NCBI RefSeq assembly: GCF_024199945.1
Contig: NZ_JANADP010000001.1
Span: 2,480,001-2,544,000, forward strand
DNA: 64,000 nucleotides
From: Bradyrhizobium sp. CCGUVB4N
Lineage (GTDB): Bacteria; Pseudomonadota; Alphaproteobacteria; Rhizobiales; Xanthobacteraceae
Direction of reading: 5' to 3'
The notes beneath the pieces were generated by a model. It saw only the letters and a list, made by a program, of their open reading frames with translations, was not told the DNA's origin and searched no databases. The position numbers and the translations under genes were made by a program. Below, one piece after another: positions 25,590-31,528 of this stretch (position 1 is its first letter; every line of letters begins with the position of its first letter).

Positions 25590-26729
25590 TCAGTAATTGA
25601 TCCGCAGCCCGACGCCGCCATGGATGGTGTTGCCGACCGGCTGCGGGCCCAGCGTGCCGTTGGCGAAGAGGTCCACGACCCAGCCCTTCTGCACGCGGAA
25701 GCCGAGGCGGCCGCCATATTCGAACCAGCCCTGGTTGCCCATCGTCGGCACCACCATGCCGTCGCCGGTCACGGTGGCGACGATGCCGCTACGGCTGGCG
25801 AACGACTGCACCCAGCCGCCATTGATGTTGGTCTCGATATTGCCGGCGAAGAGATGGGTCCACTGGCCGCCGATCTTGACCAGGCTGGTGCGGTCGGTGC
25901 CGGTGGCAATGGTGGCGTCGAACGGATTGAACGCGATCGTGTTGTCCGCATAGCCCGATACGCGCTGCCAGAGTTGCCAGACCTCGACGGAGGCTGCGAC
26001 CTCATCCTGCGGTGACAACCGGCTCATCCAGCCGGCGCGACCGTAGACCGCGTAGTTCGCGGCGTTGGTCGAGCTGGTCACGCTCACCGGGCCGAGGCTG
26101 GTGTTGTAGCTGCGGGTGTAGTGCGCCTTCTCCCACGGCGTCAGGATCGTGCCGACGTCAAAGAACGGACGCGACGAGCCCCAATCGGTGAAGTCATAAC
26201 GCAGCGCGAAGGCGCCGATCGGTGCGCTGGTGATGTTGTAGCCGCCCTCGCTGTATTGCGTGTAGGCGAGGCCGGCGAGCAGCGACAGATTGGGCGTCAG
26301 CTCCTTGCGGCCGTGGACGCCGGCCGAGAACGAGCCGGCCGAGCCGAACGCGCTGATGCAGTCGCTGCAATTGACCTGCTCGTTGACGCCAAGCAGCACC
26401 GTACCGAGCACGCGGTTGGTGATCATCTGGTTGAAGCGCTGGTTGGCGAGACCGCCAACCGAGTTGCCGCTGGAATCGGAGCCCGTCGGCGTGGGGCTGG
26501 GCGACGGGCTTGGCGACGGGACCGGGTTCGGCGACGGGGACGGACTCGGCGACGGATAGGAGGTTGGTGACGGATAGGGGTTGGGCTCGCCGCATTCAGA
26601 CTCGCAGGTGCTCGCGGCTGCGGCCGAACGGGTGTTGAGCCCGAACAGCGCAAGCGTCGCGCACGCAGCCAACGCGCCGGCCAGGACAAGCCTCTTGAAG
26701 CCGAGCTGCGTCATCGTCAGCGCCCGCAT
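25590..26729 (-). CDS. Outer-membrane barrel protein with Pro/Ser stalk
   Basis: Exported protein of 379 aa. A signal peptide (LVLAGALAACATLALFG) is followed by a short Cys pair, CESEC, and a stalk of roughly 40 residues made of PSPSPSP-type repeats (about residues 45-85). The remaining 290 residues look like an autotransporter-type beta-barrel: alternating Gly/aromatic strands such as LSLLAGLAYTQYS and YAVYGRAGWMSRL, with the C-terminal strand ending in LRINY. A CSDC pair lies at the start of the barrel. There is no large passenger. The start overlaps the end of the FecR gene by 13 bp; an ATG at 26714 is an alternative. Confidence 0.75.
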   Translation of the reverse strand: MRALTMTQLGFKRLVLAGALAACATLALFGLNTRSAAAASTCESECGEPNPYPSPTSYPSPSPSPSPNPVPSPSPSPSPTPTGSDSSGNSVGGLANQRFNQMITNRVLGTVLLGVNEQVNCSDCISAFGSAGSFSAGVHGRKELTPNLSLLAGLAYTQYSEGGYNITSAPIGAFALRYDFTDWGSSRPFFDVGTILTPWEKAHYTRSYNTSLGPVSVTSSTNAANYAVYGRAGWMSRLSPQDEVAASVEVWQLWQRVSGYADNTIAFNPFDATIATGTDRTSLVKIGGQWTHLFAGNIETNINGGWVQSFASRSGIVATVTGDGMVVPTMGNQGWFEYGGRLGFRVQKGWVVDLFANGTLGPQPVGNTIHGGVGLRINY

Positions 26730-27418
26730 AGCATGCCGTCGTCATGGACGGCGGGCGTAATGGTCGGCGAGGCATCGGCATACTGGTTGACGGCGCACAG
26801 CCCCGCATTCGCGGCGCAGTTGGCGGCGAAAGTCCAGGGCGGCGTGTTGGTCTTGGTGATGGAGACCTTGCCGCCTGTCGAGGTGATGACCGCGGTGTCG
26901 CCCGGCTGGGTGAGCTGGATGCACTGGAAGTTCAGCGTGCAGACGCTGGCCGCCCCCTCCTGAAGCACGACGACCGAGCGGCCGCGCTGCGACAGGATGT
27001 CGAGCGTGGTGCCGCGGACACCGATGGTCGCGAGCGGCGTCGTGATCTTGTAGGCGGTCTTCTCCGAATGCCCGGTCACGAAGCGGAAGGCGCCGGTGGC
27101 CATGCGAATCGCGACGTCGCGATAGCTGTGCTCGTCGTTGAAGACGGTGCGATCGAGCTTCAGCGTGGCGCTCGGTCCAAGCGACAGATTGGTGCTGTCG
27201 GCCATGACGAAGCGCGCTGCGCTGTCGGTGCCGGTGCGTACGGTCTCGTCGCGCAGCATGCTGTCGCCAACGCTGATCGGTGACGTGGTCGCGGCGACGC
27301 GCACCACCTCGTTTTGAACCAGGACGGCTTCGCCGACACGCGTTTGGGCCTGCGCGCAGGTCGCAGCGCAGAGCGTGGCCGACAGCAGCGCAGGGAAAAG
27401 CAGAAAACGAAAATTCAT
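26717..27418 (-). CDS. Exported FecR-domain protein
   Basis: A 233 aa protein with a signal peptide (MNFRFLLFPALLSATLC, then AQAQ) and a FecR domain: MLRDETVRTGTDSAARFVM, then LGPSATLKLD and TTPLATIGVRGTTLDI are typical. FecR proper is an inner-membrane signal transducer, but this one has no membrane segment after the signal peptide and no sigma-factor partner next to it, so it is likely a free periplasmic or surface FecR-fold protein. Several Cys occur near the C-terminus. It overlaps the barrel gene by 13 bp, implying joint translation and function, and is divergent from the mannosyltransferase gene. Confidence 0.78.
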   Translation of the reverse strand: MNFRFLLFPALLSATLCAATCAQAQTRVGEAVLVQNEVVRVAATTSPISVGDSMLRDETVRTGTDSAARFVMADSTNLSLGPSATLKLDRTVFNDEHSYRDVAIRMATGAFRFVTGHSEKTAYKITTPLATIGVRGTTLDILSQRGRSVVVLQEGAASVCTLNFQCIQLTQPGDTAVITSTGGKVSITKTNTPPWTFAANCAANAGLCAVNQYADASPTITPAVHDDGMLCGR

Positions 27419-27507
27419 ATGGTACCCGATCGAAGTCCCTGATCGCGCGCCTGCGTTGTGGTAGACTGATCCGTGGCGGCGCGAGACGAGCGTTAGCTTA
27501 GTGACAG

Positions 27508-28884
27508 TTGCGGCAGAATGCGTTCAATGGATCGGCTGAGTTGTTTTTTATTCGCGGTGACGCAGATTTGCCACGCAAACTAGCCCCACTTCAGTCGCTT
27601 GAGGCACATGCGGTTCCGCAACTGTCGCGAAGCGCAGTGATCGCTGTCGCGATCTTCCTAGCTGCGCATCTCGCGCTGCTGGTCGGGCTGGTGACGCCGG
27701 AAAAATTCGTCTTCGACGAGGTGCACTACGTGCCGGCGGCGCGGCAGATGCTGGGCTTCGGCACGTCGGATCCGATGCTCAATCCGATGCATCCGCCGCT
27801 GGCGAAAGAGCTGATCGCGGGTTCGATCGCGGCATTCGGCGACAATGCGCTGGGCTGGCGCTATCCGGCGACGCTGTTCGGTGCGCTCGCAATCGTCGCG
27901 ATCTATCTCTGCGGTCTGGCGCTGTTCGGATCGCAAGGGCCCGCGATCGCAGCCGCGCTGATCGCGGCGTTCAACCAGATGCTCTATGTGCAGGCGCGCA
28001 TCGCGATGCTCGACATCTTCGCGCTCGGCTTCGGTCTGCTCGCCATTGCCGCCTTCATGCACGGCTTTCGACGAGAGCGGCCGCAGGCGCTGTTCGCGCT
28101 CGCGGGTGCGTTGTTCGGTCTGGCCGCCGCCTGCAAATGGAGCGGCCTGTTTCCGCTCGGTGTTTGCATCGGGATCGTTGCATTGATCCGCCTGATGCAG
28201 GGTTGGCACACGCGGTTTGCCGATGCCAAGCCAAGCGATTGGTACCGGCCCGATCTGTGGCCGGAATTCAGGCTTCATCATGCCGCGCTCTGCTTCGCGC
28301 TGCTGCCGGCCGTGACCTATCTCGCCGCCTTCGTGCCGCTCTATGGTGTGTCGCTGCCGGATCTGGTCGAAGCACAGCGCCGCATCTTTGCCGACAACAC
28401 CACCACCGCGATCGCCGGGCATACTTACATGAGCTCGTGGCCATCCTGGCCGCTGCTCGCGCGTCCCGTGTGGTTCCTGTTCGACAAGACGTCGGACGAC
28501 AACGTCGCGGCGGTGGTTTTCCTCGGCAATCCGCTGGTGCTGTGGCCGGCGCTGCTCGCGCTCGCAGTGGTGTTGCGCGACTTCATCGTCGCGCGTCGCT
28601 GGGATGCTTTCCTGATCGCGGCGTTCTATTTCGGCCCCTGGCTCGCCTGGGCGCTGCTGCCGCGCACGCTGGGCTTCATCTATTATTATCTGCCGGCCGC
28701 AACCGCGGCCTCGCTCGCGCTGGTCTATGTGATGCGAAGAGAGGGCCTGCCACGCTGGCTGTTGTGGGCCTATGTCGGCCTCGCCGCGATCGGCTTTGTG
28801 GTGATGCTGCCGGTCTCGGCCGCCTTCATCGGCACGTCGATGCAGACGTTCAACCGGCTGATGCTGTTCCAGAGCTGGATCTGA
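27508..28884 (+). CDS. PMT-family (GT39) glycosyltransferase
   Basis: Polytopic inner-membrane enzyme, about 458 aa, that should transfer a sugar, classically mannose, from a polyprenyl carrier to an acceptor on the periplasmic side. The acidic DE pair of the PMT family is present in FDEVHYVPAARQML, followed by MHPPLAKELIAG, the next conserved loop; about ten hydrophobic segments follow. PMT-type enzymes O-mannosylate Ser/Thr of exported proteins; related ArnT-type enzymes modify lipid A, so the acceptor is uncertain. The start could be further in; no good ribosome site marks 27508. Divergent from the FecR-barrel pair. Confidence 0.8.
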   Translation: MRQNAFNGSAELFFIRGDADLPRKLAPLQSLEAHAVPQLSRSAVIAVAIFLAAHLALLVGLVTPEKFVFDEVHYVPAARQMLGFGTSDPMLNPMHPPLAKELIAGSIAAFGDNALGWRYPATLFGALAIVAIYLCGLALFGSQGPAIAAALIAAFNQMLYVQARIAMLDIFALGFGLLAIAAFMHGFRRERPQALFALAGALFGLAAACKWSGLFPLGVCIGIVALIRLMQGWHTRFADAKPSDWYRPDLWPEFRLHHAALCFALLPAVTYLAAFVPLYGVSLPDLVEAQRRIFADNTTTAIAGHTYMSSWPSWPLLARPVWFLFDKTSDDNVAAVVFLGNPLVLWPALLALAVVLRDFIVARRWDAFLIAAFYFGPWLAWALLPRTLGFIYYYLPAATAASLALVYVMRREGLPRWLLWAYVGLAAIGFVVMLPVSAAFIGTSMQTFNRLMLFQSWI

Positions 28885-30018: not shown

Positions 30019-30112
30019 GTATTCCGTCGTGAACTGGATCAGGTTGCTCTCATCGGATCGGCTCAAGCTGATCCGAGAGCAGCGAAGAAGTTTAGATCAG
30101 GGGAGAATGATC

Positions 30113-31528
30113 ATGCGCTTCTTGATCGCAGCAATTTCAATCGTAGCATTCATTGTCAGCGGCAACGCGGCTCTTGCGGACAAGCGCGTCGCTTTTGTGG
30201 TCGGCAACGCCGCCTACAAGAATGTCCCGCAGCTCCCTAATCCCGCAATCGATTCCAAGGCTATCGCCAGGGTGCTCCGCAACGTCGGTTTTGATGTCGT
30301 CGAGGGCGCCAACCTCACCCGCGACGCCATGACCGCAAAGCTCCTGGAGTTTGGCAAGAAGAGCGAGGGTGCGGATGTCGCCGTGTTCTTCTATGCCGGC
30401 CACGGCATTGCCGTGAATGGCGTCAACTACCTGTTGCCGATCGACGCGGACCTGAAGTCGGAGATGGATGTCAAGCTCGGCGCGGCGATCAATGTCGATC
30501 TCACGCTCGACCAGACCATGTCGGATGCGAAGGTGAAGCTCGTGTTCCTGGACGCCTGTCGTGACAACCCGTTTGCGGCAAAGATCCGGTCGGCCAAGGC
30601 CACGCGCTCCGTCAACGTGCAGACCGGCCTTGCCGAGATGAAGTCGGGCGAAGGCACGCTGATTGCCTTTGCCACCGGCCCCGGCCAGACCGCGCTCGAC
30701 GGCGAGGCCGGTACCAACAGCCCGTTCACCCGCGCACTGGTCGCCAACATTGCCCAGCCCGGGATCGAGATCCAGCAGGCGATGACCAAGGTCCGCGCCC
30801 AGGTCAGTGACGAGACCAACAAGGGACAATTGCCCTGGGGGCATACCAACCTCACCGGCAACGTCTATCTCAATCCGGTCAACACGCCCGCTGTGGCCAC
30901 GACCGACACATCGCCGATGTCGTCCGCGACCAGGCAAGGGTCCGACATCGAGCTCGAGTTCTGGCGCTCGATCAAGGACACCAACAAGGTGGAAGAGCTC
31001 AACGCCTATCTCACCAACTATCCGAACGGCACGTTCAAATCGATCGCGCTCGCCCGCATCGCGGCGTTGCAGGATGGACCGTCCAACACCACCCGCAACC
31101 TCTCGGCCGGGATCGATCCCGCGACGTTCACCGACGAAGCCAATCAGGTGTCCGAAGACCAGATCGGTTTGGACAAGAGCCAACGTCGCGACGTGCAGCG
31201 CCGCCTCACCGGGCTCGGCTTCGACGTCAAGACGACGGGCAAATTCGACGACGAGACCCGTTCCGTGATGAAGCGGTGGCAGGCGGCACGCGGCTATCCC
31301 GCGACCGGTTATCTGAACAAGCTCCAGCACAAGGCGCTGCTGTCTGAAATCATCTCGACCCGCGCGGCCTCCTCCGAGGAGCAGGCGGACGATGAGCCTT
31401 GGCGTCGCCGGTCCTCCGGTGGCGGCGGCCGGCGCCATTATAGCGGCGGTGGTGGCGGTGGCGGTCCGATGGGCGGCCCCGGCGGTCTGTTCGGCGGTAT
31501 GATGGGCGGGTTGTTCGGCCGCCGCTGA
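30113..31528 (+). CDS. Exported caspase-like (peptidase C14) protein
   Basis: A 471 aa protein with a signal peptide (MRFLIAAISIVAFIVSGNAALA) followed directly by a caspase/metacaspase p20-like domain: DKRVAFVVGNAAYKNV is the first strand, the catalytic His lies in FFYAGHGI (His97) and the Cys in FLDACRDNPF (Cys149). A helical tetratrico-like stretch (ELEFWRSIKDTNKVEELNAY) and a peptidoglycan-binding-like helical domain (QRRDVQRRLTGLGFDVKTTG) follow. The C-terminus is Gly-rich with GGGGGGG and FGGMMGG. The ATG at 30113 follows AGGGGAGA by 7 nt; upstream in-frame starts are less well placed. Substrate unknown; it would act outside the cytoplasm. Confidence 0.85.
   Translation: MRFLIAAISIVAFIVSGNAALADKRVAFVVGNAAYKNVPQLPNPAIDSKAIARVLRNVGFDVVEGANLTRDAMTAKLLEFGKKSEGADVAVFFYAGHGIAVNGVNYLLPIDADLKSEMDVKLGAAINVDLTLDQTMSDAKVKLVFLDACRDNPFAAKIRSAKATRSVNVQTGLAEMKSGEGTLIAFATGPGQTALDGEAGTNSPFTRALVANIAQPGIEIQQAMTKVRAQVSDETNKGQLPWGHTNLTGNVYLNPVNTPAVATTDTSPMSSATRQGSDIELEFWRSIKDTNKVEELNAYLTNYPNGTFKSIALARIAALQDGPSNTTRNLSAGIDPATFTDEANQVSEDQIGLDKSQRRDVQRRLTGLGFDVKTTGKFDDETRSVMKRWQAARGYPATGYLNKLQHKALLSEIISTRAASSEEQADDEPWRRRSSGGGGRRHYSGGGGGGGPMGGPGGLFGGMMGGLFGRR

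Follow-up and report, generated by a model that had tools for sequence, protein, structure and literature searches.

A predicted GT39 protein O-mannosyltransferase beside a FecR-barrel gene pair in Bradyrhizobium, with the barrel's Ser/Thr-Pro stalk as a possible acceptor

Introduction

In the portions of the cited papers available to us, bacterial O-mannosylation by glycosyltransferases of family GT39 is described for actinobacteria (PMC11727336, PMC3068309), and GT39 enzymes are said to modify exported proteins in linkers or N-termini that lack structure (PMC11727336). A different route is given there for the autotransporters AIDA-I, Ag43 and TibA, which receive heptose in the cytoplasm (PMC3068309), and in the part of that source available autotransporter glycosylation is discussed apart from O-mannosylation. 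Judged by titles and the opening lines of abstracts, none of the papers listed in searches of open-access literature reports O-mannosylation by a protein O-mannosyltransferase (PMT) like that proposed below, whether for Bradyrhizobium, for an autotransporter, for Sphingomonas or for Gram-negative bacteria or alphaproteobacteria at large. Here we analyse a stretch of 64,000 nucleotides (the window; bases 2480001-2544000 of the single-contig 9.21-Mb genome of Bradyrhizobium sp. CCGUVB4N), in which a GT39/PMT-like gene lies divergent from two overlapping genes, one for an exported FecR-domain protein and one for an outer-membrane barrel with a Ser/Thr-Pro-rich stalk.

We propose, with a probability of roughly 0.58, that the enzyme acts in the periplasm as a GT39 protein O-mannosyltransferase and that the stalk of the neighbouring barrel is among its acceptors. 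It would face the periplasm, take its sugar from polyprenyl-phosphate-mannose made by a GT2-GtrA enzyme of the same genome that resembles dolichol-phosphate-mannose (DPM) synthase, and transfer mannose to Ser/Thr residues of proteins on their way out of the inner membrane, in segments that are unfolded and rich in Pro. The stalk of the adjoining barrel would be one of these acceptors, and the barrel, with its autotransporter-translocator build, may display it in glycosylated form on the cell surface. A broader form of the proposal, to which we give an even chance, is that this is a Gram-negative periplasmic GT39 system with a stalk-only autotransporter as one of its dedicated acceptors, selection maintaining Ser/Thr-Pro in a sequence-independent form (PSPSP, TPTPT or even STSTS) for as long as the enzyme is present.

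Family, motif and fold of the enzyme

The enzyme gene (window positions 27508-28884, plus strand) is read as 458 codons from a TTG at 27508, a start that is uncertain. Its product matches the Pfam domains PMT (PF02366; E = 5.4e-15, 56.1 bits against a cut-off of 22.7) and PMT_4TMC (PF16192; E = 4.5e-11, 43 bits against a cut-off of 32.4), and no MIR domain was matched in the 458 residues in the Pfam search. Asp70-Glu71 (27715-27720, plus strand), the DE motif of the first loop, lies within FDEVHYV and is invariant in 18 of 18 aligned orthologues; in the HPPLAK loop at residues 95-100 (27790-27807, plus strand), H95, P96, P97, L98 and K100 are likewise invariant in 18 of 18 and A99 nearly so. 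In the Corynebacterium glutamicum GT39 enzyme, according to the part of the source available, mutating the D or the E of this motif abolished activity, loss of the protein not being excluded (PMC11727336). The ArnT family model NF009784 was absent among the matches of the window enzyme at E <= 1.

A structure model of the enzyme (mean predicted local distance difference test score, pLDDT, 74.6; predicted template modelling score 0.82) fitted Chaetomium Pmt4 best, with Z 30.8 over 400 aligned residues at 4.5 A, and Foldseek also ranked Pmt4 first. Yeast Pmt1-Pmt2 followed closely (Z 29.6), with oligosaccharyltransferase at Z 23.3 and ArnT at Z 23.2, so that the modelled fold is closer to eukaryotic Pmt than to either of the latter. 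Sequence searches of solved structures returned nothing for the window enzyme, for a PMT_2-type paralogue described below or for a sphingomonad PMT, leaving the folds alone as informative.

The FecR-barrel pair and its stalk

The barrel gene (25590-26729, minus strand) encodes 379 residues with a signal peptide. Its model (pLDDT 72.9) comprises about 12 long strands and a 27-residue helix on the N-terminal side of the barrel (residues 87-113; 26391-26471, minus strand), and it fits the autotransporter EstA with Z 27.2 and the NalP translocator with Z 26.9 (259 residues, 2.5 A), the helix falling inside the NalP-aligned region, residues 90-379 of the model. Ahead of this region the passenger consists of a disordered stalk alone, about 35-50 residues long. 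Its Ser/Thr-Pro-rich part, at approximately residues 49-82 (26484-26585, minus strand), is the proposed acceptor of O-mannosylation; pLDDT was below 50 over residues 21-77, and the stalk-barrel frame was the only open reading frame (ORF) rich in Ser-Pro or Thr-Pro ([ST]P) steps to pass our filter in the 64-kb window. Because the barrel gave no match to Pfam Autotransporter (PF03797) at E <= 1, and indeed no usable Pfam match at all, it is filed as autotransporter-like and not as a member of the PF03797 family; in a sequence search of solved structures it matched only weakly, and largely through the low-complexity stalk.

The FecR gene (26717-27418, minus strand) encodes 233 residues with a signal peptide recognised by eye and a FecR domain (PF04773, E = 2.5e-16) at residues 59-157. 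Its frame overlaps that of the barrel by 13 nt, and an alternative in-frame ATG at 26714 would make the two genes abut. A gap at 27419-27507 separates the divergent FecR and PMT frames, and a scan of 27300-27700 for sigma-70-like promoters in this divergent region gave no match. The FecR protein was found in 64 of 64 long loci, which had been picked for holding the barrel, and it may have a part in the proposed system. No sigma factor was seen among the six window ORFs scanned with Pfam or among the neighbours scanned, no search aimed at sigma factors having been made. Thus the layout that the sequence-only reading had described was borne out by ORF coordinates, motifs, domains and models alike: a GT39/PMT-like enzyme with the FDEVHYV pair and HPPLAK, divergent from overlapping genes for an exported FecR-fold protein and for an exported barrel with a PSPSP stalk and hardly any passenger.

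Of four distant homologues of the barrel (27-31% identity), three are plasmid-borne in rhizobia and the fourth comes from another genus of the family. All four have different passengers, with 1-6 [ST]P steps preceding the barrel, and two are annotated DUF4360. On Mesorhizobium and Pararhizobium plasmids (L432:1185-3217 and L433:1305-3361), the gene for a barrel homologue with a DUF4360-annotated passenger follows another DUF4360 gene, the two being paired much as in the FecR-barrel arrangement.

Stalk composition in genomes with and without the enzyme

Genome counts here and below rest on matches, remnants included, and the genome searches scored only part of the candidates (for example, 7 of 36 in the barrel search), so that absences can be misses. 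Stalks were read from best matches with coordinates in 160 barrel-bearing genomes, 156 with PMT and four without, and 17 further loci were added later. We found 4-32 [ST]P steps (median 14) in the N-terminal part of the protein in the 156 genomes with PMT and 1, 1, 1 and 3 in the four without, and steps per residue separated the two groups fully. Full separation was also seen for the Ser+Thr fraction, which was 0.105-0.204 in the PMT-less stalks and at least 0.233 in the others. Stalks from genomes with the enzyme varied greatly in length and sequence, Ser-Pro being dominant in 113 and Thr-Pro in 37, and one (G138) being mostly Ser-Thr with 4 steps. In the genome with PMT in pieces (G391), the stalk was intermediate, and its nearest relatives in the tree, which have the enzyme, carry long repeats. 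A scan of named genomes, in which 80 of 136 loci were kept, added 17 new loci to 63 with barrel cores identical to ones already read; PMT lay beside the pair in 16 of the 17, and all 16 stalks had at least 10 steps.

In a tree of the FecR protein and the barrel core, built quickly and with the stalk excluded, the four PMT-less rows represented three changes in PMT, with stalk decay in 3/3. PMT-less branches made up 6.9% of the tree length, so that, assuming three independent events, the chance of three decays falling there is the cube of this value, 3.3e-4. Regression with phylogenetic covariance gave p 0.002 for raw counts and 1.6e-8 for log counts. Stalk decay in the four PMT-less relatives points to the stalk as one putative target of the enzyme. 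Of the two acceptors suggested by the sequence-only reading, the stalk gained support in this way (low [ST]P content in 4/4 genomes without PMT and 0/156 with it), and the FecR protein gained none.

A rather unlikely explanation of the same data is that the enzyme O-mannosylates other exported proteins, the stalk being a flexible linker whose decay reflects coincidence or a shared effect of lifestyle. The great variability of the stalks, the shortness and low Pro content of the PMT-less ones and the small number of loss events would all fit this explanation, as would the genomes with PMT that lack a barrel match; however, it does not readily account for the full separation of [ST]P content among 160 genomes, or for the 21 stalks of 50 residues or fewer that occur with PMT and still have 4-16 steps.

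Several points weigh against the stalk as an acceptor of a GT39 mannosyltransferase. The enzyme itself misses the cut-off of the NCBIfam PMT equivalog NF058602, scoring 63.5 bits of 800, and is therefore filed as GT39-like and not as that equivalog. The Pro fraction was low in the PMT-less stalks and overlapped with that of the others (0, 1, 1 and 7 of the 156 stalks with PMT being lower), and three of the four PMT-less stalks were among the shortest, so that the stalks may have decayed generically, for some other reason. There were just three loss events, and a sign test on three pairs is unable to reach 0.05; the tree is a quick one, in which one of the PMT-less genomes (G187) sits on a long branch of uncertain placement. 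When presence or absence of eight other neighbours was used as a negative control in 64 long loci, nominal p values of 0.001-0.02 were obtained, and that of PMT in this subset (62 loci with and 2 without), 0.017, was no stronger; effect size alone sets PMT apart, with group medians of 13.5-17.5 and 1. The idea was prompted by the first table of stalks, in which the four PMT-less genomes were all present from the start; enlarging the set could thus add genomes with PMT only. For some of the PMT-less genomes, the enzyme was judged absent after an initial search in which 6 of up to 9 candidates were scored, and the stalks read cover 160 of 220 barrel-bearing genomes, about 60 being left unread. 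No barrel match was found in 34 of the 249 genomes with PMT. Finally, a locus of Bradyrhizobium sp. S69 (L407:3967-5894) is the one possible counter-case: there the FecR-barrel pair lies in a foreign context, its Thr-Pro stalk is very long (30 steps), and PMT is absent within 5 kb. Taken with these points, the support for the stalk as acceptor is real but limited.

Occurrence and synteny of the three genes

Of 265 Bradyrhizobium genomes, 249 had a PMT match (240 of the 251 good ones) and 220 a barrel match, so that the locus is not a chance observation. Among 397 genomes drawn from the order, the enzyme was seen in 15, all of them in the genus; of 398 genomes drawn from the phylum, 10 of the genus had it, as did 11 that belong to a second alphaproteobacterial family. 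This second family is very likely the sphingomonads, because one of its loci (L193) has the same neighbours, GT2, leuB and recO, as a PMT match on a plasmid of Sphingomonas parapaucimobilis (L435). Neither FecR nor the barrel was matched in the 11 sphingomonad-type PMT loci, and 75 of 80 named relatives with the barrel were Bradyrhizobium.

Within the genus, the order GGT-FKBP-cupin-glyoxalase-[barrel-FecR]-PMT-OmpA-wHTH was kept, with gaps, in 17 loci of about 19 kb. Since the whole neighbourhood is syntenic, any two neighbours appear linked, and we rejected adjacency as evidence of function, the flanking genes being equally syntenic. PMT and barrel matches occurred together in 215 of the 265 genomes, PMT alone in 34, the barrel alone in 5 and neither in 11, an association above chance when kinship is left uncorrected (Fisher p 2.5e-6; 2.7e-4 in good genomes). 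Loss nevertheless went in both directions. The pair was kept where PMT was lost between FecR and OmpA (G285), was gone from the locus in a single-contig genome (G187) or was in pieces (G391), and 5 of 16 PMT-less genomes retained a barrel match. Conversely, PMT stood without the pair in five loci (G122, G363, G359, G189 and G215); the barrel was also missing at the PMT locus in G381 and G249, reduced to a remnant of 25 residues in G181 and of 54 residues in one further genome with PMT, and absent from another. Rescoring all candidates in 18 genomes left the barrel outcome unchanged. The FecR and barrel genes, with their overlapping frames, behave in these comparisons as one unit that is lost together.

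That the three genes form one obligate module needing PMT is therefore highly improbable. Co-occurrence above chance would favour such a module, yet the losses are independent in both directions and the neighbourhood is syntenic regardless; in its strict form it is contradicted both by the three genomes with the pair and no intact PMT at the locus and by the five with PMT and no pair. For the same reason, the adjacency on which the sequence-only reading had built its argument does not carry it, and the occurrence of the enzyme and the pair without each other is part of what that reading had named as telling against a common unit. Because many genomes keep PMT without the barrel, the enzyme must, as far as gene content can tell, have further work beyond the stalk, on protein or lipid.

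Two genes from PMT, at 30029-31528 of the window, lies a gene for a caspase-like (Peptidase C14) protein that ends in a peptidoglycan-binding domain, present in 14 of 64 long loci. A PHROGs scan gave nothing useful.

Donor synthase and the lipid A alternative

The Bradyrhizobium genome holds a candidate donor enzyme, a GT2-GtrA protein (L113:9962-11152) whose best solved relative is the DPM synthase 5mlz (E = 2.7e-46), followed by an ArnC-type transferase (2e-15) and sll0501 (5e-7), which we take to be of the polyprenyl-P-glucose type. It is 44-50% identical to the sphingomonad-type GT2-GtrA proteins, whose genes lie in the same 19 kb as PMT in 10 of 11 loci and within about 1.5 kb in 9 of 11. 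In these loci (L186-L196 and L435) the PMT gene is usually beside the DPM-synthase-like gene, leuB and recO being present in both L193 and L435. Sphingomonads are not known to have lipopolysaccharide, and mannosylation of either protein or glycosphingolipid by their PMT is possible.

Directly behind the Bradyrhizobium GT2-GtrA gene is a gene for a second GT-C enzyme, of PMT_2 type and 501 residues (both genes, L113:8426-11152; G000:C1:6074425-6077151). We found this enzyme in 27 of 27 Bradyrhizobium genomes tested, including all 16 without PMT (its gene being split between contigs in G284); of 46 other genera of the family, 15 have it too. Among 30 loci fetched, 29 have the DPM-synthase-like gene next to it, in one case incomplete. 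A third enzyme, ArnT-like and of 580 residues, lies in a row with a PAP2 phosphatase and a GT2 gene (L112:8798-12188; G000:C1:4841797-4845187) and matches NF009784 at 5e-18. According to the part of the source available, Oligotropha has rgtF, lpxE and rgtE loci in a similar gene order (PMC7663294), and by analogy the row is probably the rgtF-lpxE-rgtE counterpart for lipid A C-1.

These enzymes bear on the alternative that PMT mannosylates lipid A or another envelope glycolipid, its neighbours being unrelated, which we consider unlikely. Bradyrhizobium lipid A carries two mannoses at C-4' and lacks phosphate, whereas that of the related Oligotropha has two galacturonic acids (PMC7663294, as far as available), so that a lipid role is a natural suggestion; the draw of 397 genomes from the order, with PMT in the genus only, and the genomes with PMT and no barrel, or a remnant only, are also in keeping with it. 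The PMT_2-type enzyme, being present in 27 of 27 genomes with the synthase gene mostly beside it, is nevertheless a better candidate for the C-4' mannosyltransferase than PMT, and the separate ArnT-like enzyme is clustered with PAP2 and GT2 genes of its own. Mannose at C-4' is also given for Rhodomicrobium in the portion of the source available (PMC7795004), yet PMT was confined to the genus in the order draw, which may omit Rhodomicrobium. The occurrence of PMT homologues in sphingomonads and the fold, nearer Pmt than ArnT, likewise argue against a lipid substrate, from which the stalk pattern would not be expected. These data weaken the lipid alternative, and lipid A mannosylation was demoted as the leading explanation on account of the other GT-C enzyme in 27 of 27 genomes and the stalk pattern. 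Of the ArnT-type alternative that the sequence-only reading had raised, kinship with ArnT has lost ground (Z about 23, against about 30 for Pmt), and a lipid role as such has become less likely. The survey also yields candidates for the Bradyrhizobium lipid A mannosyltransferase, a step for which the parts of the literature consulted name no gene.

Comparison with known systems

If O-mannosylation of the stalk holds true, Gram-negative bacteria would have an added glycosylation route, in which a mannosyltransferase of the periplasm modifies the stalk of an autotransporter, and plants could encounter a glycosylated structure on the surface of legume symbionts of this genus. The Bradyrhizobium enzyme shares with actinobacterial and eukaryotic GT39 enzymes (Pmt of Mycobacterium, Corynebacterium and Streptomyces; yeast Pmt1/2/4) the GT-C fold, the DE motif and the PMT and PMT_4TMC domains, and a polyprenyl-P-mannose donor would be expected for it as for them. 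It differs from them in its Gram-negative host, its 458 residues without a MIR match, its low equivalog score (63.5/800) and its proposed acceptor, an autotransporter-like stalk.

As in AIDA-I, Ag43 and TibA, the sugar proposed here would be attached to a type V barrel protein, on its passenger; unlike in those systems, the enzyme adding it would be a GT39 transferase in the membrane, acting at the periplasmic face. The lipid A glycosyltransferases ArnT, RgtF and RgtD also have the GT-C fold and use polyprenyl-phosphate donors, and ArnT fits the model with Z 23.2; however, Pmt is closer (Z about 30), and the same genome has separate ArnT-like and PMT_2 enzymes. The barrel, for its part, resembles the translocators of EstA, NalP and EspP in its 12-strand-type build with a helix on the N-terminal side, and differs from them in having a Ser/Thr-Pro stalk in place of a folded passenger, in giving no PF03797 match and in its overlapping FecR partner.

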